Made by a program: the position numbers and the translations under genes. A DNA stretch of 64,000 nt from an uncultured Vicinamibacterales bacterium. GTDB lineage: Bacteria > Acidobacteriota > Vicinamibacteria > Vicinamibacterales > UBA8438. Location of the stretch: positions 124,001-188,000 of the forward strand of contig OY282382.1 in assembly GCA_958295905.1 (NCBI GenBank), written 5' to 3'. Below the pieces are notes generated by a model. That model saw only the letters and a list, made by a program, of their open reading frames with translations, was not told the origin of the DNA and ran no database searches. Shown one piece after another: positions 1 to 19,327 of the stretch (within the stretch, counting starts at the first letter, position 1; each line of letters opens with the position of its first letter).

Positions 1-195
1 TGGGCGGAGGCGTTACTGGACGCCGGACGGCTGCGGGCGGAGGGGTTCCTCGACCCGCGGCCAGTCCGCCGGAAGTGGCATGAATTCCTGAATGGGCATG
101 AGCAATGCAAACAGCACCTCTGGAACGTTCTGATGTTTCAGGCGTGGCTGGACCGCCGTCGACGGAACTCCGGACCAGGCGTAACCGCGGCATGA
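1..195 (+). CDS. asnB: Asparagine synthetase (glutamine-hydrolysing), C-terminal end, partial
   Basis: Only the last 64 codons are in the window; the reading frame is open from base 1 and stops at 193-195. The translated tail has the pattern of the AsnB synthetase domain C-terminus: a run like FLDPRPVRRKWHEFLNG followed by HLWNVLMFQAWL, the usual end of bacterial AsnB before a short variable tail. AsnB makes asparagine from aspartate with glutamine and ATP. AsnB paralogues often sit inside polysaccharide clusters, which fits the glycosyltransferases and flippase just downstream on the other strand. The identification rests on this short tail alone. Confidence 0.75.
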   Translation, partial: WAEALLDAGRLRAEGFLDPRPVRRKWHEFLNGHEQCKQHLWNVLMFQAWLDRRRRNSGPGVTAA

Positions 196-350
196 CCTTG
201 GGAATGTTCGCCGACCCGTCCTTTCCGCTGCGGCGTTCGCAAGAGCGACTCGAATGCGCCGGCGCTCGATCCGGCTGCCACGACCGGCGGCGCGGCCTCC
301 CGGCGCGCATTCCGCGCCGCGCTCGGCGGCGGGTAACATATTCAACCTGT

Positions 351-1343
351 ATGCGCAGATTCAACACGGAAGGTCCCATCCGCCCCGAGGACCATTACCA
401 CGTTCCGCCGCTGGAACGGGTGGACCTCGACCAGATCCTGGACATGATCCGGCGCAAACGGTACTTCCTGCTGCACGCGCCCCGTCAGACCGGCAAGACC
501 TCGGCTCTCCTGGCGCTTCGGGACCTGCTGAACCGCGGCGAACAAGGCGACTTCCGGTGCGAATATGTGAACGTCGAGGCCGCCCAGGCGCACCGCGAAG
601 ACTTGAGCGGCGCGATGCGCACCATTCTCGGCGCGCTGGCCGACCACGCCTTGCTGTCAGGCGACCGGTTCCTGGACGGGGTCTGGCTGGACATCCTGAG
701 CAGTTTCGGCCCGGGCGGAGCGCTGGGCGCCGCATTGACGCGCTGGAGCCTGGCCGACCCCAAACCGCTGGTGCTGCTGGTTGACGAGATCGACTCGCTC
801 GTCGGCGACACGCTGCTGTCCGTGCTCCGGCAGTTGCGCGCCGGCTACGAGCAGCGTCCCGGGGGCTTTCCGCAAAGCGTCGTGCTTTGCGGCGTGCGAG
901 ACCTTCAGGATTACCGCATCCGCTCCGGCTCGGGCGGGATGATCGCCGGCGGCAGCCCGTTCAACGTGGCCGCCAAGTCGTTGCGCCTCGCCGATTTCGC
1001 CGAAGCCGAGACGCGGAAACTGCTTGCGCAGCACACCGCCGAAACCGGGCAGGCGTTCACGCCGGAGGCGCTGAAGATGGTCTGGACCCAGACGCAGGGT
1101 CAGCCCTGGCTGGTCAACGCGCTGTGCGCCGACGCCTGCTTCGACAACGAGTCCGGCCGCGACCGCTCCCGCGCCGTTACCGCCGCCGACGTCCTCGACG
1201 CCCGCGAGCGGCTGATTCTGAGCCGGCGCACCCACCTCGACCAACTCGCCCACCAACTCGAGGAGGAACGGGTGCGGCGGGTCGTGGAACCCGTACTGAG
1301 CGGCGGCGACGAGCCCCGCTACCATCTTGGCGGCGCGCCTTGA
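351..1343 (+). CDS. AAA-like ATPase (AAA_35 type), C-terminus apparently truncated
   Basis: Predicted 330-aa cytoplasmic P-loop ATPase. A Walker A-like run HAPRQTGKTSAL lies near residue 43 and a Walker B-like run LVLLVDEIDSL near residue 140; a later QPWLVNALC segment is typical of the family. Proteins of this AAA-like family usually continue after RRVVEPVLSGG into a winged-helix tail of more than 100 residues. Here the frame ends about 12 residues later, so the tail looks lost by frameshift or rearrangement. The start is the ATG at 351, where homology to the family begins; the frame is open back to 105 but that stretch looks non-coding and carries no clear ribosome site. Function unknown; many relatives sit in accessory regions. 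Confidence 0.65.
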   Translation: MRRFNTEGPIRPEDHYHVPPLERVDLDQILDMIRRKRYFLLHAPRQTGKTSALLALRDLLNRGEQGDFRCEYVNVEAAQAHREDLSGAMRTILGALADHALLSGDRFLDGVWLDILSSFGPGGALGAALTRWSLADPKPLVLLVDEIDSLVGDTLLSVLRQLRAGYEQRPGGFPQSVVLCGVRDLQDYRIRSGSGGMIAGGSPFNVAAKSLRLADFAEAETRKLLAQHTAETGQAFTPEALKMVWTQTQGQPWLVNALCADACFDNESGRDRSRAVTAADVLDARERLILSRRTHLDQLAHQLEEERVRRVVEPVLSGGDEPRYHLGGAP

Positions 1344-1431: not shown

Positions 1432-2502
1432 CTATTGCTCCGAGACCGCGAGCCGCAGGTCCGTAACCAGACGATCATGCCATTTCGCGCTTCGGAAGTC
1501 CTCTCCCCGGCGTTCGGCTCCCTTGCAGAGCCGCCGGTACAGATCGGGATCGTCCAGCAACCGCTCGATGGCGGACCGCACCGCGTCGGCGGATCGGGGC
1601 TCCACGAGCAGCCCGTGCTCTTCGTGCCCGACGATCTCCGGAACGGCGCGCCACTTGGCGGCGATGACGGGCAGCCCGCACTGGAAAGCTTCGAGGATGA
1701 CGCCGGGATGGCCCTCCCCGGAGTAATAGCTGGGGAACAGCAGCAAGTCGTGCTCGCTCAAAACCCGGGGTATGTCCCCCGGCTCCAGCACGCCGCCATA
1801 GGTCGCCCGGGGATGGGTCTCGAACAGGGACCAGTCCGTGTCGGACATGCCGGGTCCGAAGACGTGAAGGTGGCACCGCTCGGGCAGCTGGCGGCACGCA
1901 TCAAGGGCCTCGGCCAGCCCCTTGTCCATGTGCAGCCGGGAGACGAAGATCAGCTTTCTGACCTCCTCACGCCTGATCCTGGCGGGCGCCTGGACGTTTC
2001 TCGTGCCGGGAAGCCAGCGAAAATTGGGCAGGTGGTCGAAGTCCCGGTACGCCTGCCACGTCTCGACGTACACCAGCGAACAGCGCATCCAGGCCCGGGC
2101 CGCCAGCCAGCGGGCCACGGCGCCGTATCCGTGAAACACCAGACTCAGGTCACCTCCGGAAAGCCTCAGCACCAGAGGCCGGCGCGTCATTCTGCAGATC
2201 GCCCAGACGGACGACGCGAGGACGAGCGCTGAACCGGGGGCGGTGACGAGGAACACGCCCTCGGAGCGTCGGATCTTCGTCACGACTCCCCGGATGACCC
2301 GCAAGAACCGCGCAAGGCGAGAGACATGAAATCTCCACCGGGAGATATTGGTCACATCGCCCGACGTGTCGAGGACCTCCAGCTCGAACCCCCGCTGACC
2401 CAGTTCACGAACCGCCTCGACGGCCTGCACCGTGTGCCCGCCGATCACGTTGGTGGCCGACGCCCCGGAGCCCAGCGGGGCGATGAGCAGGAGCTTCGTC
2501 AT
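1432..2502 (-). CDS. Family 4 (GT-B) glycosyltransferase
   Basis: A 356-aa GT-B fold glycosyltransferase. The N-terminus MTKLLLIAPLG is followed by a glycine-rich GGHTVQAVEAV segment. The C-terminal half carries the PF00534-type E-x7-E signature in GEGHPGVILEAFQ and a VPEIV-HGLLVEP nucleotide-sugar binding region. It probably adds a sugar to a lipid-linked polysaccharide precursor at the cytoplasmic face. The ATG overlaps the TGA of the flippase gene (ATGA at 2499-2502), so the two are translationally coupled and the longer upstream frame can be discarded. It is the last gene of the run GT2-flippase-GT4. The sugar and acceptor cannot be told from sequence. Confidence 0.85.
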   Translation of the reverse strand: MTKLLLIAPLGSGASATNVIGGHTVQAVEAVRELGQRGFELEVLDTSGDVTNISRWRFHVSRLARFLRVIRGVVTKIRRSEGVFLVTAPGSALVLASSVWAICRMTRRPLVLRLSGGDLSLVFHGYGAVARWLAARAWMRCSLVYVETWQAYRDFDHLPNFRWLPGTRNVQAPARIRREEVRKLIFVSRLHMDKGLAEALDACRQLPERCHLHVFGPGMSDTDWSLFETHPRATYGGVLEPGDIPRVLSEHDLLLFPSYYSGEGHPGVILEAFQCGLPVIAAKWRAVPEIVGHEEHGLLVEPRSADAVRSAIERLLDDPDLYRRLCKGAERRGEDFRSAKWHDRLVTDLRLAVSEQ

Positions 2503-3890
2503 CTCGTCATCTTGATCAGCATTTGACGGCCGAACACGGATCGGCCGGCCGCCCACAAGAAACTCATGTCGCCGCGTCCCGGCAACCAGATCGGGAGCCA
2601 CGCCATTCGCGTGGTCTTTTCGAACATGATCGCGAGGGCCAGGCAACGGCCGAGCATGCCGATGGTCATCGCCCAAGCGGCCGCCTCGACGCCGAGTCGC
2701 GGGTAGAGCAGAAAAATCGCGCCGAGATTGCCGCACAACCCGAGGCCAACCGCCCACGAGCAGACGTCCGGGCGGTTGACGCCCTTGAAGTGCGTCATGA
2801 AGATGCCCACGCCGGCATAGGCCAGAATCCCGGGCGCCATGATCCAGATCAGCGGGACCGCCGGCAGGAAAGCGTCCGAAAGCAGGAGCCGAATCAGCGG
2901 CGTGCTGATCGCCAGCAGGGCCAGGAGGGCGATGGCGGTCGCTCCGCAGCCGAGGCGCAGGCAGCGGGCCGACAGTTCGGGACTACGTCCGCTGGTGACA
3001 CGCGGCAGCAGCGCGTTGCCGACCGCGCTGGAGATCACGGTGAGCCGAAGCATGATCGCGCTGGCGACGGCGAACAATCCGACATCGGCCTGGCCGGCGA
3101 TCAACCCGAGCACGAGAATGCCGACGTGCTGTTCAGCCGCGTCCCCGATTCGCGCGACATGATATCTCAAACCGTAGCCGAGAATGCCGGTGACGGCCGA
3201 GCGGGACGGCATCTCCGGGACCAGCCCGCCATGCCGCCGCAGGTCCCGGAGGCAGGCGGCGATCAGGACAAGATGACCGCCGGCGAACGCCAGGAGGGCG
3301 CCGTCGACCCCGAGGCCCCCGCGCCACACGAGAACCAGGATCGCGAGGACGTGCGCCCACGCCTGCAACAGCAGGAAGATCGCAAGCCGGCCGAAGCGCC
3401 TGAGCGCGGCGAGTTGATGCTGGACCGCGAACGAGAACGCCGTCAGCGGAATCAGTGCGAGCGCCAAGTGAAACGAGCGCATCTCCGCCTTCTGGAAGAA
3501 GGCGGTGCCGCTGTGGATCATCGGGATCGCCAACGCGATCGCCAATCCACCGCCGACGAGACAGATCGTCAGCGCGGAGGACACGCCCTGCGACACGCTT
3601 GCCTGTCCCGCCAAGACGGAATACTGCGCGCCCGACTGGGCGCCGGGCGTGAAGAGCATCCCCAGCAGCGTGCCGAACGCGAGGCAGACGGCATAGCTGC
3701 CCCGGCCTTCGGGCAGCAGCAGCCAAGCGAGCAGCCCCTGGATGAGGACAGCGGGGGCGACGAGACCGATGCGGGCGGCGAACAACATGGCGAGGTCCTG
3801 GCCGCCGGTCGTGCCCGGACCGCGCAGCGCATCGTCGGCGCCTGGCCTTGATGGCGCGGCCCCCCGATCGCCGTGACTGGATCCGCCCAT
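2499..3890 (-). CDS. Polysaccharide flippase (MATE/Wzx-like membrane protein)
   Basis: A 463-aa integral membrane protein with about 12 to 14 hydrophobic segments spread along its length and short charged loops, the layout of the oligosaccharide flippase (MVF/Wzx) superfamily. It likely moves a lipid-linked glycan across the inner membrane. It starts 3 bases after the stop of the double glycosyltransferase and overlaps the next glycosyltransferase by 4 bases, so the three form one translationally linked set. An internal ATG at 3788 (MLFAARIG) just before the first membrane segment is an alternative start; the first 34 residues are polar and not family-like. Confidence 0.8.
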   Translation of the reverse strand: MGGSSHGDRGAAPSRPGADDALRGPGTTGGQDLAMLFAARIGLVAPAVLIQGLLAWLLLPEGRGSYAVCLAFGTLLGMLFTPGAQSGAQYSVLAGQASVSQGVSSALTICLVGGGLAIALAIPMIHSGTAFFQKAEMRSFHLALALIPLTAFSFAVQHQLAALRRFGRLAIFLLLQAWAHVLAILVLVWRGGLGVDGALLAFAGGHLVLIAACLRDLRRHGGLVPEMPSRSAVTGILGYGLRYHVARIGDAAEQHVGILVLGLIAGQADVGLFAVASAIMLRLTVISSAVGNALLPRVTSGRSPELSARCLRLGCGATAIALLALLAISTPLIRLLLSDAFLPAVPLIWIMAPGILAYAGVGIFMTHFKGVNRPDVCSWAVGLGLCGNLGAIFLLYPRLGVEAAAWAMTIGMLGRCLALAIMFEKTTRMAWLPIWLPGRGDMSFLWAAGRSVFGRQMLIKMTR

Positions 3891-3893
3891 CTG

Positions 3894-5912
3894 TCAATGG
3901 GAAGGGACGACGGTCTCGGTCGCACCGGTCGAACCGGCCGGCGTCGGGGTAAAGAAACCGATTCCCCAGCTCAGGTGCATGGTTGCGAGGACCAGCGGGA
4001 GCAGGATCCCGGCGGACGAACGGCGACGGACGCCGACCGCCAGAGAGCCGACGGCCAGGGTGAGGACGTACATGAGCGGCACTGCCGCCGCCCAGGAGAC
4101 GCCGGCCCCGGCCAGGACCGGCCAAGCGGCCAACCCCAGCAGCAACAGCGGGCTGGCGAGATGCCGGGGCAGCAGGGAGGCCGGATGCCGCCGCGCCACG
4201 ACCCGCTTCCATCGGCCGTAATTGAAATACTGCCAAGCGAGATCCCGCAACGTGCCGCGGGGCTGGTAGGTGGCCACGAGTTCGGGATCGAACCACACCG
4301 TTTCCCCGCGCACCCGCAGCCGCCAGTTGAGTTCGTAGTCCTGATTTCGAACGAAGGCAGGGTCGACGCCGCCCGCCGCCTCCAGCGCATCGCGCCGGAA
4401 CGCGCCCAGGTAGACGGTGTCGACGGGCCCCTCGGGGCCGCCCAGCCGGTAGCGGGCGCCGCCGGCTCCCAGGGGGGTGGTCATCGCGACCGCCACCGCG
4501 CGCCCGAAGAACGTGGCGCCGACCGGCCGTTGCCGCCCGCCGACGTTGGCCGCCCCCGTCCTTCGCAACGTGCTCACGGCGCGGCGCACGTATCCGGGTG
4601 GGAACACCGTATGGGCGTCGCACCGCACGATGATCTCGCCGGTCGCCGCCCGGTGCGCCGCGCGCAACCCGAAGCCGGCGGTCTGTTCCTGATTGCGAAT
4701 CAGTTTCACCGTCGGGTACCGCCGCCGGATCAGATCGGACGTGGCCGCGGTGTCGGATCCGTCGGCGACGATGACCTCTACCGAACCCTCGTAGTCTTGA
4801 GACAACACCGACTCTATCGCCGCCCCGATGGTCGCCTCGGCGTTCCGAACCGGTATGAGAACCGACACCGGCGGCAAGGCAGCGGCGACCGGACGAAAAG
4901 GCGCCCGGCGCGCCATCCGCCCCCTCGTGGTCCGCACCGGAGTCAAGAAACCGATGCCCCAGCTCAGGTGCATGGTTGCGAGGACCAGCGGGAGCAGGAT
5001 CGCGGCGGACGAACGGCGACGGACGCCGACCGCCAGAGAACCGACCGCCAAGGTAAGGACGTACGCGAGCGGCACTACCGCCGCCCCGGAGACGCCGGCC
5101 AGGGCCAGGACCGGCGAGGCGGCCAATCCCAGCAGCAACAGCGGGCTGGCGAGATGCCGGGGCAGCAGGGAGGCCGGATGCCGCCGCGCCACGACCCGTT
5201 TCCATCGGCCGTAATTGAAATATTGCCAAGCGAGATCCGGCAACGTGCCGCGGGGCCGGTAGGTGGCCACGAGTTCGGGAGCGAACCACACCGTTTCCCC
5301 GCGCGCCCGCAGCCGCCAGTTGAGTTCGTAGTCCTCGGCGCCGCCAAGGGTAGGGTCGACGCCGCCCACCGACGCCAACGCATCGCGCCGGAACGCACCC
5401 AGGAAGACGGTGTCGACGGGCCCCTCGGGGCCGCCCAGCCGGTAGCGGGCGCCGCCGGCTCCCAGGGGGGTGGTCATCGCGACCGCCACCGCGCGCTCGA
5501 AGAACGTGGCGCCGACCGGCCGTTGCCGGCCGCCGACGTTGGCCGCCCCCGTCCTCTGCGACACGCTCACCGCAGTGGACAAGTATCCCGGTGGGAACAC
5601 CGTATGGGCGTCGCACCGCACGATGAGCTCTCCGGTCGCCGCCCCGTACCCCGCGTGGATTCCGAACGTGATGACCTGTTCAGGATTGGAAACCAGTTTC
5701 ACCGTCGGGTACCGCCGCCGGACCAGATCGGACGTGGCCGCGGTGTCGGATCCGTCGGCGACGACAACCTCTACCGAACCCTCGTAGTCCTGAGACAACA
5801 CCGACTCTATCGCCGTCCCGATCGTCGCCTCGGCGTTCCGAACCGGAATAAGAACCGACACCGACGGCAAGGCGGTCGCAGTGGCCGGGGGCGGACCAGA
5901 ACTCTCTTTCAT
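3894..5912 (-). CDS. Double glycosyltransferase family 2 protein (in-frame tandem duplication, ExoA-like)
   Basis: A 672-aa protein made of two nearly identical GT2 units of 331 residues each (about residues 15-345 and 346-672). Each unit has the VSVLIPVRNAEATIG start, a VRCDAHTVFPPGY segment with the metal-binding D-A-H variant of DxD, a DYELNWRLR acceptor-site motif (EDYEL in unit 1, QDYEL in unit 2) and three C-terminal membrane helices. Single units resemble ExoA-type membrane glycosyltransferases. It probably builds a repeat-unit glycan with the neighbouring flippase. I chose the ATG at 5912 (MKESSG); the frame is open to 5984 but that extension overlaps the preceding gene and has noticeably lower third-position GC. 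Confidence 0.85.
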   Translation of the reverse strand: MKESSGPPPATATALPSVSVLIPVRNAEATIGTAIESVLSQDYEGSVEVVVADGSDTAATSDLVRRRYPTVKLVSNPEQVITFGIHAGYGAATGELIVRCDAHTVFPPGYLSTAVSVSQRTGAANVGGRQRPVGATFFERAVAVAMTTPLGAGGARYRLGGPEGPVDTVFLGAFRRDALASVGGVDPTLGGAEDYELNWRLRARGETVWFAPELVATYRPRGTLPDLAWQYFNYGRWKRVVARRHPASLLPRHLASPLLLLGLAASPVLALAGVSGAAVVPLAYVLTLAVGSLAVGVRRRSSAAILLPLVLATMHLSWGIGFLTPVRTTRGRMARRAPFRPVAAALPPVSVLIPVRNAEATIGAAIESVLSQDYEGSVEVIVADGSDTAATSDLIRRRYPTVKLIRNQEQTAGFGLRAAHRAATGEIIVRCDAHTVFPPGYVRRAVSTLRRTGAANVGGRQRPVGATFFGRAVAVAMTTPLGAGGARYRLGGPEGPVDTVYLGAFRRDALEAAGGVDPAFVRNQDYELNWRLRVRGETVWFDPELVATYQPRGTLRDLAWQYFNYGRWKRVVARRHPASLLPRHLASPLLLLGLAAWPVLAGAGVSWAAAVPLMYVLTLAVGSLAVGVRRRSSAGILLPLVLATMHLSWGIGFFTPTPAGSTGATETVVPSH
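3952..5875. repeat. Direct repeat of 993-bp period inside the double glycosyltransferase gene
   Basis: Bases 3952-4882 are repeated at 4945-5875 with a constant offset of 993 bp (331 codons). Long blocks are identical at the DNA level, with scattered substitutions, so this is a diverged genomic duplication and not an assembly duplicate. The stop of the first unit has been lost and replaced by an arginine-rich linker. Confidence 0.9.
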
Positions 5913-5970
5913 GTCGCGTGACGCCAAGGGGTATCGAGCCGGCTGCCCCCAGGGAGCATCCGGTTTATCG

Positions 5971-6294
5971 TCAGTTGGGAGCATTCAGTTTAGCACCGGA
6001 TGCACGGCCGGCTCGAATCTCTCTCCACAGCCGGATCGCGGCCGGGAAGTCGCGGTCCGCCAAGGCGGCCAACGCCAACGCCATCAGCGACTCGGGAGAG
6101 CGGTGGAGCGTGCAGGCGCGGCCGGCGCGGTGGCGGGCCTCCGCGGGGTCGCCGAGATCGAGCGCGGCGCGGGCCTGCCGCCGGCAGCGGGCGGCGGCCT
6201 GCTCGACCGCCAGCACCTGTCGAAGGTCGGTGCGGCAGCGGTGGCAGGACGGTCCGCCGGCATGCCGGGCGCCGCAGGTCGGACAGCTTTCCAT
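5971..6294 (-). CDS. Small zinc-ribbon protein of the chaperone operon
   Basis: A 107-aa protein with four cysteines in an N-terminal zinc ribbon (C-P-T-C about residue 4, C-H-R-C about residue 17) followed by an alanine-rich helical segment that resembles one or two TPR-like hairpins. It begins 5 bases after the Hsp70 stop, so it is the last gene of the J-GrpE-Hsp70 set and presumably an accessory or client-recognition subunit. No catalytic motif is visible. Its end lies about 60 bases before the glycosyltransferase start. Confidence 0.65.
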   Translation of the reverse strand: MESCPTCGARHAGGPSCHRCRTDLRQVLAVEQAAARCRRQARAALDLGDPAEARHRAGRACTLHRSPESLMALALAALADRDFPAAIRLWREIRAGRASGAKLNAPN

Positions 6295-6299
6295 GCCGG

Positions 6300-8096
6300 C
6301 TACTCGACGTAGAAGAGGATCTCGTCGAGGTTGCGCCTGAGCTCGGATGCCTGCCCGGCGCGCCCCTCCTTGAGGGCGCCCCGGAGATCCTCCATCAGGT
6401 TGATCATCTCTTCCCGGTCTTCGGCCGGCGCGGCGTCGAGCGCCCGTTCGGCCCGCGCCAGGGTCTCCTCGGCCCCGCGGACCACGTCCGGGGGGACGGC
6501 GGACGCCGGCGCCGGTTCCCCGCCGCGGCCGGCGGCGGCGTCCCCGGCTTCCCCCCCGCGGGCCCCGCCCCAGAGCGTCGAGACCCGTTCCCGGGCGGCG
6601 CCGAGAGCCTCGCCGGTGGAGCGCCCGATGGCGTTCTCGACGACGCCGCGGATCTCGCGGCCGGTCGCCCGTTCCCGGGCGCGCACATGCAGCAGACCGT
6701 CGAGGTCCAGACTGTAGGTGAAGAGCAGGCCCTGCCGGTGGGCGTCCCGCTGCTGGTTCAGACCGCTGAACAGGAAGGTGCCGATCTCCACGTTCTTCAG
6801 GGCGTCCGGGTCTTCCCCCTGATAGACCTTGACGTCCACGGCTTCCTGGTCCTCGAACATTGTGAAGAACACCTCGGTCCGGGTGGCCGGCAGCTTGCTG
6901 TTGCGCCGGATGAGGGGAAAGAACTGGTGGGCGTACGGCATGCCGTAGAGCTCGCCGGCGGCGCTGGTGCCGAAGGTGTAGGGCGTGATGTCGACCAGCA
7001 CCGCCTGCATGTCCCGCCCCATCTCGATACCGGCCTGCACGCCCGCCCCCAGCGCCACGCACAGATCCGGATCGACCTCGCCGTGCGGCTCCTGCCCCAG
7101 CCGCTCCGCGAGGACCGCCGCGATCCTCGGAATGCGGGTGGAGCCGCCCACCAGCAGCACGCGGTCGAGCTCGCTCGGACGCACCGCGGCATCCTGCAGA
7201 GCCGTGGTCACGGCCCGGAGGGAACGGTCGAGAAGCGGCTCCAGGTCGCTCTCGAATTCGGTGCGGCTCAGCTCGCAGGCGAGATGCGCGGGTGCGCCGT
7301 CCACCGTGGCGACATGGTCCTCTTCGACGCGGACCCAGGGTTGATCCGACAGATCGATCTTGGCGCGTTCCGCCGCCCGCCGCAGACGCGCCTGCAGGAG
7401 ACGGTCGCCGCGCGCGCCCTCGACGCCCAGCTCCTTCTCGATATGAGCGTTGAGGCGTTCGACGATGAGCGCGTCGAAATCGTCGCCGCCGAGCCGGTTG
7501 TCGCCGGCGGTGGCCAGGACCTCGACCACGCCCTCCTCCACGCGCACCACCGAGACGTCGAACGTGCCGCCCCCCAGATCGTAGACGAGAAGGGTGCCGC
7601 GCCCGGTGCTGCCGCTCTCGTAGCTGAGGGCGGCGGCCGTCGGTTCGTTGATGATCCGGACGACCGTCAGGCCGGCGATTTCCCCGGCCTCCCGCGTCGC
7701 CTGCCGCTGGACGTCGGTGAAGTAGGCGGGAACGGTGATGACGGCCTTGCGCACCTCCCGGCCGACCGCGCGGTCCGCGCGTTCCTTGAGCGCCTTGAGG
7801 ATGAAGGCCGAGATCTCCTGCGGCGCATAGTCGCCGTCGCCCATCCGCACCCGCGTTCCCGAGCCCATCAGCCGCTTGACCGAGAGCACCGTCCGCTCGG
7901 GGGCGGCCTCGGCCTGGTTGCGGGCCTGCCGCCCGACGATGACGGCGCCGCGGTCGTCGAGTCCCACGCACGAGGGCAGGACGGCCTCGCCGCGGTCCTC
8001 CACGATCGTGGGCTTCCCGCCGGTGATGATCGCCACCTCGGAGTTCGTGGTGCCCAGATCGATGCCGATGATGGTGTCGTCGCCGCTCACTGCCAT
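6300..8096 (-). CDS. Hsp70 family chaperone (DnaK paralogue)
   Basis: A 598-aa cytoplasmic Hsp70, shorter than canonical DnaK (about 640). The ATPase domain is complete: GIDLGTTNSEVA phosphate-1 motif, VITVPAYF, the connector INEPTAAAL, VYDLGGGTFDVS phosphate-2 motif and the LVGGSTRIPRI adenosine motif. The substrate-binding domain follows, and the tail ends in acidic helices without a DnaK-type EEV end. The start ATG at 8096 (MAVSGDDTIIGIDLGTT) places the motif normally; longer frames are spurious. It lies 5 bases after the GrpE-like gene, so J-like, GrpE-like and Hsp70 proteins are co-expressed as a dedicated chaperone machine distinct from housekeeping DnaK. Confidence 0.9.
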   Translation of the reverse strand: MAVSGDDTIIGIDLGTTNSEVAIITGGKPTIVEDRGEAVLPSCVGLDDRGAVIVGRQARNQAEAAPERTVLSVKRLMGSGTRVRMGDGDYAPQEISAFILKALKERADRAVGREVRKAVITVPAYFTDVQRQATREAGEIAGLTVVRIINEPTAAALSYESGSTGRGTLLVYDLGGGTFDVSVVRVEEGVVEVLATAGDNRLGGDDFDALIVERLNAHIEKELGVEGARGDRLLQARLRRAAERAKIDLSDQPWVRVEEDHVATVDGAPAHLACELSRTEFESDLEPLLDRSLRAVTTALQDAAVRPSELDRVLLVGGSTRIPRIAAVLAERLGQEPHGEVDPDLCVALGAGVQAGIEMGRDMQAVLVDITPYTFGTSAAGELYGMPYAHQFFPLIRRNSKLPATRTEVFFTMFEDQEAVDVKVYQGEDPDALKNVEIGTFLFSGLNQQRDAHRQGLLFTYSLDLDGLLHVRARERATGREIRGVVENAIGRSTGEALGAARERVSTLWGGARGGEAGDAAAGRGGEPAPASAVPPDVVRGAEETLARAERALDAAPAEDREEMINLMEDLRGALKEGRAGQASELRRNLDEILFYVE

Positions 8097-8101
8097 CCGT
8101 G

Positions 8102-8770
8102 TCACTCCTGTGCGCCGAGCCGGTTCACCACGACGTCGGCGGGACGGAGCACGTCGTCGTGCCGGACGAACCCGCTCCGAAGCTCCTCGACCACCCGGCC
8201 GTCCCCGGCCTCGTCGACCCGCCGCGCCTCCACCGCGTGCATGACCCGGCTGTCGAAGGATCGTCCCACGGTCTCCACGCGCCGGACTTCGAACCGGGAC
8301 AGCATCCGATCGAATCGTCTGATCGCCATCTCGTACCCTTCGACGACCCCGTCGACGTCCCGCGGCGGGCGCCTGAACAGCCGGGGCCGCCCGCGCAACC
8401 GAACCGCGGCATCCCGGCCCCGCACCAGGGCGTCGCGCACCTCGAAGGTCTCCACGAGACAGCGGTCCTCGGCGGTTCTGGAGATGCGTTTCTCGAACGC
8501 GGCCAGCGCCTCGCCCCGGTGCTCGACCTCGCGGGCGGCCGTCTCGTAGCGCGCCGCCGCCGCCGCCAGCTCGCGGCCCGCTCTGGCCTGCCCGCGGTTC
8601 TGCAGGCGGATCTCCTGCCGCAGCGCGGCGAACTCGGCGAACAGATCGCGCAGGTCGCAGTCGGCGGCGTCGGGCTCCCCGGGTTCCGGCGCATCGTCTC
8701 CCAGGGCGTCGAGCCACTGCCGAAAGTCCTCCAGCGCCCGCCGCTGCCATTCTCCGCCCGGCTCATGCAT
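8102..8770 (-). CDS. GrpE-like nucleotide exchange factor
   Basis: A 222-aa protein with the GrpE plan: a long N-terminal coiled coil (about residues 30-110, rich in Q, R, E and A heptads) and a C-terminal beta-wing segment reading VVEELRSGFVRHDDVLRPADVVV, very close to the GrpE signature. It should release ADP from the Hsp70 encoded next. The start (MHEPGGEWQ) overlaps the stop of the J-like gene by 8 bases, so translation is coupled. It is divergent from housekeeping GrpE in the middle region. Confidence 0.8.
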   Translation of the reverse strand: MHEPGGEWQRRALEDFRQWLDALGDDAPEPGEPDAADCDLRDLFAEFAALRQEIRLQNRGQARAGRELAAAAARYETAAREVEHRGEALAAFEKRISRTAEDRCLVETFEVRDALVRGRDAAVRLRGRPRLFRRPPRDVDGVVEGYEMAIRRFDRMLSRFEVRRVETVGRSFDSRVMHAVEARRVDEAGDGRVVEELRSGFVRHDDVLRPADVVVNRLGAQE

Positions 8771-9068
8771 CCAGCTTCTCTTCCACCGCCAGGAGGGTCT
8801 GCAGACCGGGCGCCTTGCGGCGCTCCGCACGAGCCCGCACCAGCGCATCCAGCGCCAGGTCGAAGTCGCCGTAGCCCGCCATCCCGAAGAGGGCCGTCTT
8901 CACGCGCGCACGTTCGTCCTTCAGGGCCTCGTAGGCGGCGGTGAACTGCTGAAAACGCTCGGGGTCCCGCGCGGGCCGATGCGCGCGCACCAGTTCCAGG
9001 TAGCGCCGGCGGATCTCCGCCTGCGTCGCCGACGGCGACAGTCCCAGCACGAGAAAGGGGGCAAGCAT
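8763..9068 (-). CDS. J-domain-like protein lacking a canonical HPD motif
   Basis: A 101-aa protein whose first 55 residues follow the J-domain plan: VLGLSPSATQAEIRRRYLEL (helices I and II), then a loop, then DPERFQQFTAAYEAL (helix III). The loop reads AHRPARD where DnaJ has HPD, so the histidine is followed by R-P instead of P-D. HPD is needed for stimulation of Hsp70 ATPase in standard J proteins. The rest is an arginine- and alanine-rich helix. It is the first gene of the J-GrpE-Hsp70 run and probably targets that Hsp70 only. Confidence 0.7.
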   Translation of the reverse strand: MLAPFLVLGLSPSATQAEIRRRYLELVRAHRPARDPERFQQFTAAYEALKDERARVKTALFGMAGYGDFDLALDALVRARAERRKAPGLQTLLAVEEKLDA

Positions 9069-17462: not shown

Positions 17463-18448
<986 letters not shown>

Positions 18449-18452
<4 letters not shown>

Positions 18453-19327
18453 TACCGCGGGAGATCCTCACGCAGGTCCGCCGGGTCGAGATCGCCACGC
18501 GGGGTCTCGTGCACGAGGTCTTCTCGGGCGAGTACCACTCGGTGTTCAAGGGCCGCGGCATGAACTTCGCCGAGGTGCGCGAGTACCACTACGGCGACGA
18601 CATCCGCAACATCGACTGGAACGTGACCGCGCGCGCCGGCGCGCCGTTCGTCAAGGTTTTCGACGAGGAGCGCGAGCTGACGGTGATGCTCGTCGTCGAC
18701 GTCAGCGCTTCCGGCGACTTCGGCTCGGCCGGCCGCATGAAGGGCGAGGTGGCGGTCGAAATCTGCGCGGTGCTGGCCTTCTCGGCCATCACCAACAACG
18801 ACAAGGTCGGCCTGATCATCTTCAGCGACCGCATCGAGAAGTTCGTGCCGCCCCGCAAGGGACGCCGCCACGTGCTGCGGGTACTGCGCGAGCTGCTCTA
18901 CTTCGAGCCGGCGGGGCGCGGCACCGACATCGCCGGCGCGCTCGAGTACCTGGCCCGCGTCATCCGGCGCCGCGCCGTGACCTTCGTGGTCTCCGACTTT
19001 CTCGCCGGCGGCTACCGGCGGGCCCTGGCGGTGGCCGGCCGCCGGCACGACACCATCGTCATACGTATCGGCGACCCCCGCGAGCAGGCGCTGCCGCCGG
19101 TCGGCTACGTCGACCTCGAGGACGCCGAGACCGGCGACCGGCTCACGGTGAACGTGTCGGACCCGGCCTTCCGCCGGGCCTTCGAGCGCCAGGTGGCGGA
19201 GACGCGGGAGGCGCGCGGGCGGGCGTTCCGGCAGGCGGGGGTCGACGTGGTGGAAATCGCCACCGACCGGCCCTACGCCGACCGGCTGATGCGTTTTTTC
19301 CGGCAACGCGCGAAACGGTTCCGATGA
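18449..19327 (+). CDS. DUF58 domain protein
   Basis: A 292-aa cytoplasmic protein with the DUF58 signature (EVREYHYGDDIRNIDWNVTAR near residue 45) and a von Willebrand A-like fold: the MIDAS start VVDVSASG, then KVGLIIFSDRIEKF and the late FVVSDFL strand. DUF58 proteins accompany MoxR in Bat operons. The start is the GTG that overlaps the moxR stop by 4 bases; the next gene overlaps by ATGA. Coupling on both sides supports fixed stoichiometry. Confidence 0.9.

Follow-up and report, generated by a model that had tools for sequence, protein, structure and literature searches.

Evidence for gene conversion around two protected islands in a two-headed glycosyltransferase gene found in several bacterial phyla

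Proteins that combine two GT2 glycosyltransferase modules in one chain are already known, KfoC and PmHAS being examples (PMC10939387). PmHAS, a Class II hyaluronan synthase, has two independent GT2 modules, one for each monosaccharide, and is a peripheral protein that becomes soluble once truncated, and in the Class I hyaluronan synthases one GT2 module adds both sugars (PMC10939387). KfoC, the chondroitin polymerase of E. coli K4 (PDB 2z86/2z87), has two GT2 (GT-A) domains per chain, one per sugar. What determines sugar specificity in GT2 enzymes is a long-standing problem. Here, we describe a two-headed GT2 gene in a 64,000-nt stretch of DNA (contig OY282382.1, hereafter the window) from an uncultured Vicinamibacterales bacterium. 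By analogy, KfoC and the Class II hyaluronan synthase appear to be the closest counterparts of the encoded enzyme; what differs here is that the heads are near-identical and under gene conversion, that two islands are protected, and that each head is followed by hydrophobic helices. A literature search found no report of the two-headed gene, and searches on converting fused duplicates returned no relevant papers. The gene and its parts are as follows.

3894..5984, minus strand: two-headed GT2 gene, longest open reading frame of 696 aa (open reading frame list, self-alignment, two stretches of Pfam PF00535)
5912, minus strand: conserved Met of the two-headed gene, giving 672 aa (start region compared with relatives)
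4947..5867, minus strand: unit a, residues 40-346, GT-A domain and C-terminal hydrophobic helices
4875..4946, minus strand: Arg-rich linker of 24 aa between the units
3954..4874, minus strand: unit b, residues 371-677, GT-A domain and C-terminal hydrophobic helices, inside the 342-aa AlphaFold2 model
5655..5675, minus strand: VITFGIH, island 1 of unit a, in the loop and helix immediately ahead of the DxH strand (position from the unit b model), diagnostic columns fixed in 10/10 genes
4662..4682, minus strand: island 1 of unit b, TAGFGLR, counterpart of VITFGIH
5334..5348, minus strand: island 2 of unit a, LGGAE, abutting the predicted catalytic Asp 218
4341..4355, minus strand: island 2 of unit b, FVRNQ, abutting the predicted catalytic Asp 549

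The first-pass annotation had described two units duplicated in frame and joined by a linker, and self-alignment bears this out: the units are offset by exactly 331 residues in an open frame, with 272 identical positions at this offset and at most 39 at the other tested offsets (320-344). At the DNA level, 300-nt repeats lie 993 nt apart at 91-92% identity, and over 936 nt units a and b are 90.9% identical (pS 0.107, pN 0.084). The end that had been placed at 5912 coincides with a Met (..DMKES..) kept in most relatives, and comparison of the start regions makes this Met a likelier start than 5984. ADGSD, DAH, ED or QD ahead of YELN, and QYFNYGRWK are found in each unit, and hydrophobic helices come after them, the hydrophobic segments of the protein being 277-347 and 609-678. 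The reported clustering of substitutions between the units holds as well, with the 85 differences concentrated at codons 91-120, 136-146, 203-218 and 287-308 (p = 0.0002). Two of the four clusters are common to relatives, at residues 104-110 and 213-217 of unit a, and compared with the nine relatives described below those at 136-146 and 287-308 are peculiar to the window gene. Unit a of the window gene also has a D235A change in its VWFDP motif (5280-5282) that is not seen in unit a of the nine relatives.

Pfam PF00535 matches each unit, in two stretches and over its curated cut-off (E 6.5e-41), and the GT-A fold is supported by a model of unit b and by PDB superpositions. ADGSD, DAH and ED/QD, which include the metal/nucleotide motif and the predicted catalytic Asp, are kept in both units of all ten genes, which supports the earlier proposal of two heads, and the catalytic motifs are intact in each. 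The units resemble a single-unit GT2 subfamily that we take to be ExoA-like, the label being our own. Unit b has the whole ExoA-like signature (RNQDYELN, QY..YG.WK and C-terminal helices), and unit a deviates only at the island, where it reads GGAEDYELN. NCBIfam equivalog cut-offs were not reached for MftF (174.8 against 280), PgaC (the PgaC/IcaA family; 93.6 against 422), EpsD (99.2 against 370) or HpnI (88.5 against 310). Profile and structure comparisons point to KfoC, PcManGT, WrtF and the hyaluronan synthases.

Two further genes follow on the same strand, and by their spacing in the sequence the three form a tight operon.

2499..3890, minus strand: flippase-like polysaccharide exporter (Pfam PF13440), first ATG 3 nt past the stop of the two-headed gene
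1432..2502, minus strand: GT4 glycosyltransferase (Pfam PF00534), its ATG overlapping the flippase stop (ATGA, 2502-2499)

The same order of GT2, flippase and GT4 is found at L047, where the GT2 is single-unit. In five relatives the GT4 gene, 81-89% identical in DNA, comes right after the two-headed gene and an entire flippase gene is missing from the interval, and flippase remnants are present in L040 and L037. Heptose genes resembling HddA and GmhA lie beside several copies, with scores far below the equivalog cut-offs, and none was seen beside the window gene; for both reasons we name no donor sugar on the strength of the neighbours. Directly upstream of the operon (6300-9068, minus strand) lie a DnaK-like Hsp70 gene, a GrpE-like gene and a short gene of J-domain-like appearance.

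KfoC is the best PDB match to the unit profile, in two stretches, and unit b can be superposed on either of its domains (Z 20.4). The best structural match across almost the entire unit, including the helices behind the GT domain, is the Class I hyaluronan synthase of Chlorella virus (8snc; Z 23.9 over 314 residues), of which only residues 76-452 align, and the window unit has no counterpart of its N-terminal part. Both matches would suit an enzyme whose heads take turns at the chain end and make a polymer of disaccharide repeats, in the manner of KfoC or a Class II hyaluronan synthase. However, the flippase and GT4 neighbours better fit stepwise assembly of a lipid-linked repeat, and neither an ABC exporter nor a Wzy-like gene was identified among the annotated close neighbours of the two-headed gene, and we consider alternating polymerization rather improbable. 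The protein does have the two GT2 modules in one polypeptide that characterize Class II bifunctional synthases, but these synthases are peripheral and lack transmembrane helices, whereas the window protein has predicted hydrophobic segments and, in the model, helices. The hydrophobic helices behind each head, together with the flippase and GT4 among the neighbours, set it apart from PmHAS. In contrast to those of KfoC, its heads are near-identical tandem copies that conversion keeps alike, with about three hydrophobic helices after each.

A scan of ~85,000 species genomes recovered nine further two-unit genes in eight genomes, one of which has two copies (L036 and L038). All nine belong to the record series OY282xxx, and by title their hosts are metagenome-assembled genomes (MAGs) of Gammaproteobacteria, Pseudomonadales, Nitrospirales and Entotheonella. 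The first-pass annotation had proposed comparing orthologues for one- and two-unit forms, and both exist: after the nine two-unit relatives, the next relatives are single-unit, namely L077 from Gammaproteobacteria at about 70% identity, and L044, L047 and L048 from Chloroflexota or relatives at 57-63%. Many Acidimicrobiia also have single-unit homologues, at 42-52%. The single-unit proteins L044, L047 and L077 match each unit of the window gene in fold, motifs, helices and length, but have one unit; among the single-unit sequences as a whole, Asn is near-invariant at both islands (60/61). The distribution of the two-unit gene is restricted and patchy. Neither of the two remaining genomes in the window's genus has it, nor do the 395 further genomes examined in its phylum, leaving the window genome as the one carrier in 396; a single-unit homologue at 57-60% is present in six of these 396, which all belong to one genus. 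Few genomes in orders related to the other hosts have the two-unit form (3/17, 1/146 and 1/194), and in the class of Entotheonella it occurs in 1/5 genomes.

Other arrangements of related domains were also seen. Two Pseudomonadales carry in-frame fusions of an ExoA-like unit with a different GT2 (L045:7965-9932 and L049:7950-9818); these fusions resemble the window gene in having two GT2 domains in one open reading frame with the ExoA-like unit first, but their second domain is no copy of the first. A similar GT2 pair occurs as two separate adjacent genes at L077:8007-9923. At L044:7032-8966, a 644-aa open reading frame joins an NAD-dependent epimerase domain, closest in NCBIfam to GDP-L-fucose synthase but under the cut-off, to an ExoA-like GT2 unit. 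At L042:10112-13635, the two-unit gene is followed by a third GT2 unit, which forms a gene of its own and changes frame late; its island 1 is a-like and its island 2, VRAED, resembles that of L077. The GT4 gene after this third unit is tandem-duplicated, and an 85-bp piece of the GT4 3' end is repeated.

With its units 91% identical in DNA, the window gene could be taken for a recent in-frame duplication private to its lineage, or for an assembly artefact, but a two-unit gene of this kind, with its islands unchanged in pattern, occurs in other phyla at nine other loci on chromosome-level MAG contigs, and we give this explanation next to no credence. As these nine loci differ in sequence, an assembly duplication is ruled out, and a pseudogene is likewise ruled out by the two-unit reading frame being open at all nine.

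The relation between the units is not uniform along the gene. Across the ten genes, ten alignment columns are consistently unit-specific, and 10/10 lie inside the two islands. Island 1 reads (V/I)IT.GI(H/L/Q) in unit a and TAGFGL(R/C/G) in unit b, and is distinct between the units in 10/10 genes; island 2 reads LGGAE against (F/L)VRNQ, and is distinct in 9, the exceptions to the consensus being L036b and L037b. The first-pass annotation had singled out EDYEL versus QDYEL and the loop before D-A-H, and these are the sites at which the units stay different in all, or all but a few, of the nine relatives. In the backbone, pS is 0.100 within genes (minimum 0.017) compared with 0.17-0.19 between genes. 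The islands behave in the opposite way: within genes pS is 0.47 and pN 0.44, whereas between genes pS is 0.16 for a-a and 0.26 for b-b comparisons and pN is about 0.10. In every gene, the differences between its units are enriched in the islands (p between 1e-5 and 7e-28). Homogenisation is weaker in L039 and L042 (pS 0.31-0.34), yet these keep the same islands.

Trees separate the two regions in the same manner. In the backbone tree, units a and b of one gene pair with each other, with support of 96-100 in six relatives and 63 in L042, and those of the window gene (WINa and WINb) are adjacent; only L036 and L038, the paralogues of one genome, pair a-a and b-b. In the island tree, all a units are split from all b units. 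AU tests agree: for the backbone, a topology that splits a from b is rejected (delta lnL 527, p = 5e-6), and for the islands, one that pairs the units by gene (delta lnL 265-301, p = 2e-5). Taken together, the trees, the AU tests and the synonymous divergence indicate that a single old duplication was followed by gene conversion, from which two islands were protected. It is unlikely that the duplications were independent and the islands convergent, as the island codons are nearly identical across phyla. The earlier view that the fusion is recent therefore does not stand: the duplication predates the spread across several phyla, and the high similarity of the units is explained by gene conversion, not by recency. 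The protection of island 2 is not absolute, given two cases. In L036b the island 2 codons, GGG GGG GGC GAG, are close to those of its own unit a and likely mark a conversion event, the canonical copy L038 being kept in the same genome, and in L037b there is a Q-to-E change.

The AlphaFold2 model of unit b (342 aa, pLDDT 93.8, pTM 0.89) comprises a GT-A domain, then an amphipathic helix and three hydrophobic helices. In GT2 enzymes, the region ahead of the DAH strand contacts the nucleotide. Island 1 (model residues 81-87) begins the helix ahead of the DAH-bearing strand, and island 2 (model residues 190-194) stands immediately before Asp 195, the predicted catalytic base; the model thus puts the two islands next to the predicted active site and at no obvious interface. 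Across 73 unit sequences, D102 of the model is invariant and D195 nearly so. Of 61 single-unit relatives, 60 have Asn 87 and 60 have Asn 193, the sole exception for both being L077, the nearest single-unit relative, which is unit-a-like. Because unit b keeps the near-invariant family NQD at island 2, it is likely to be nearer the ancestral chemistry there, with unit a as the GGAED variant. A full-length prediction from a 10-sequence alignment reached a pLDDT of 40 and was not used, and we infer the relative placement of the heads and the topology. The Arg-rich linker suggests, by the positive-inside rule, that both heads are cytosolic; as each unit has three helices, an odd number, a cytosolic unit b in turn means that one of the three probably does not cross the membrane.

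Two accounts of the heads can be weighed against these features. One is that a single head is catalytic and the other serves as an acceptor-binding or regulatory module, and unit a, which lacks both near-invariant Asn residues (model positions 87 and 193) and in the window gene also has D235A, would be the candidate for the latter. However, unit a keeps ADGSD, DAH, ED, R224 and QYFNYGRWK in 10/10 genes, and L077 has the same H/A/E state with no second unit beside it, so we regard a silent head as improbable. The other is that the protein is a covalent dimer whose heads carry out the same reaction twice, adding the same sugar for reasons of dosage or avidity, the island differences being historical or structural, for example at a head-head interface. 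The presence of all catalytic motifs in both heads and their near-identity outside the islands would fit this account, but the backbone is homogenised close to the islands, yet island 1 is distinct in every gene and island 2 in nearly all, and the islands sit beside the predicted active site rather than at an obvious interface. We therefore consider two equivalent heads unlikely.

The first-pass annotation had allowed for two sugars or for one sugar added twice, and between these the maintained divergence of the islands favours different specificities for the two heads. The reading that we prefer, with moderate confidence, is that both heads are active and prefer different donors and/or acceptors, so that a lipid-linked glycan receives successive sugars from them. 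The gene would encode an ExoA-like, membrane-associated GT2, its one original unit having been doubled in frame ahead of the spread between phyla. Conversion homogenises the units within most genes, except at the two islands, and conversions crossing the islands would be removed by selection, the heads needing different donor and/or acceptor recognition. With both heads facing the cytosol, they may then extend the lipid-linked glycan by two residues in succession, either different ones or one residue in two contexts, and the neighbouring flippase-type exporter would move this glycan. The gene offers a natural controlled comparison, in which a scaffold has repeatedly been made alike and about ten residues in two islands have been held apart; if the heads do differ in specificity, the island residues are prime candidates for setting it. 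A bolder picture, which we hold to be improbable, is a membrane-embedded two-headed synthase with its own helices for each head, alternating to make a disaccharide-repeat polymer and shared across the phyla of one symbiotic community, with conversion running around two protected active-site islands whose ~ten residues define two specificities.

The identity of the two-headed gene between hosts is far higher than that of a core gene. RpoB of the window genome is only 50-60% identical to that of the other hosts, and the two-headed gene is 75-83% identical in protein and 82-89% in DNA to its relatives; therefore, the gene has moved between phyla. Vertical inheritance is ruled out by the RpoB comparison together with the patchy distribution. 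The most parsimonious history starts from an old operon with a single-unit GT2, which was duplicated internally and later spread between phyla. Entotheonella is known from sponges (PMC12858407, PMC10227082), and because it is among the hosts a sponge community is the likely source of them; lateral transfer within sponge communities has already been studied (PMC8163846). The two-headed gene documents an exchange of surface-glycan genes across bacterial phyla, seemingly in a sponge-associated community.

Other sequences are shared among these genomes. A 2.1-kb block with heptose-kinase-like (GHMP) and SIS isomerase-like genes is 92.8% identical in DNA between L036:10241-12353 and L040:12625-14732, a gammaproteobacterial and a Nitrospirales MAG respectively, and similar blocks occur in L037, L039 and L041, which suggests a wider exchange of glycan genes. 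An AAA-like ATPase gene (PF13401; window 105-1343, plus strand) is multi-copy in the hosts of the two-headed gene, with 8 matches in the window genome and as many as 28 in G423; across phyla these are about 60-84% identical. Plasmid matches, from Sinorhizobium and Nonomuraea, are without annotation in the collection. At L042, two inverted copies of the PF13401 ATPase gene (2955-4474 and 17467-18986) flank the cassette.
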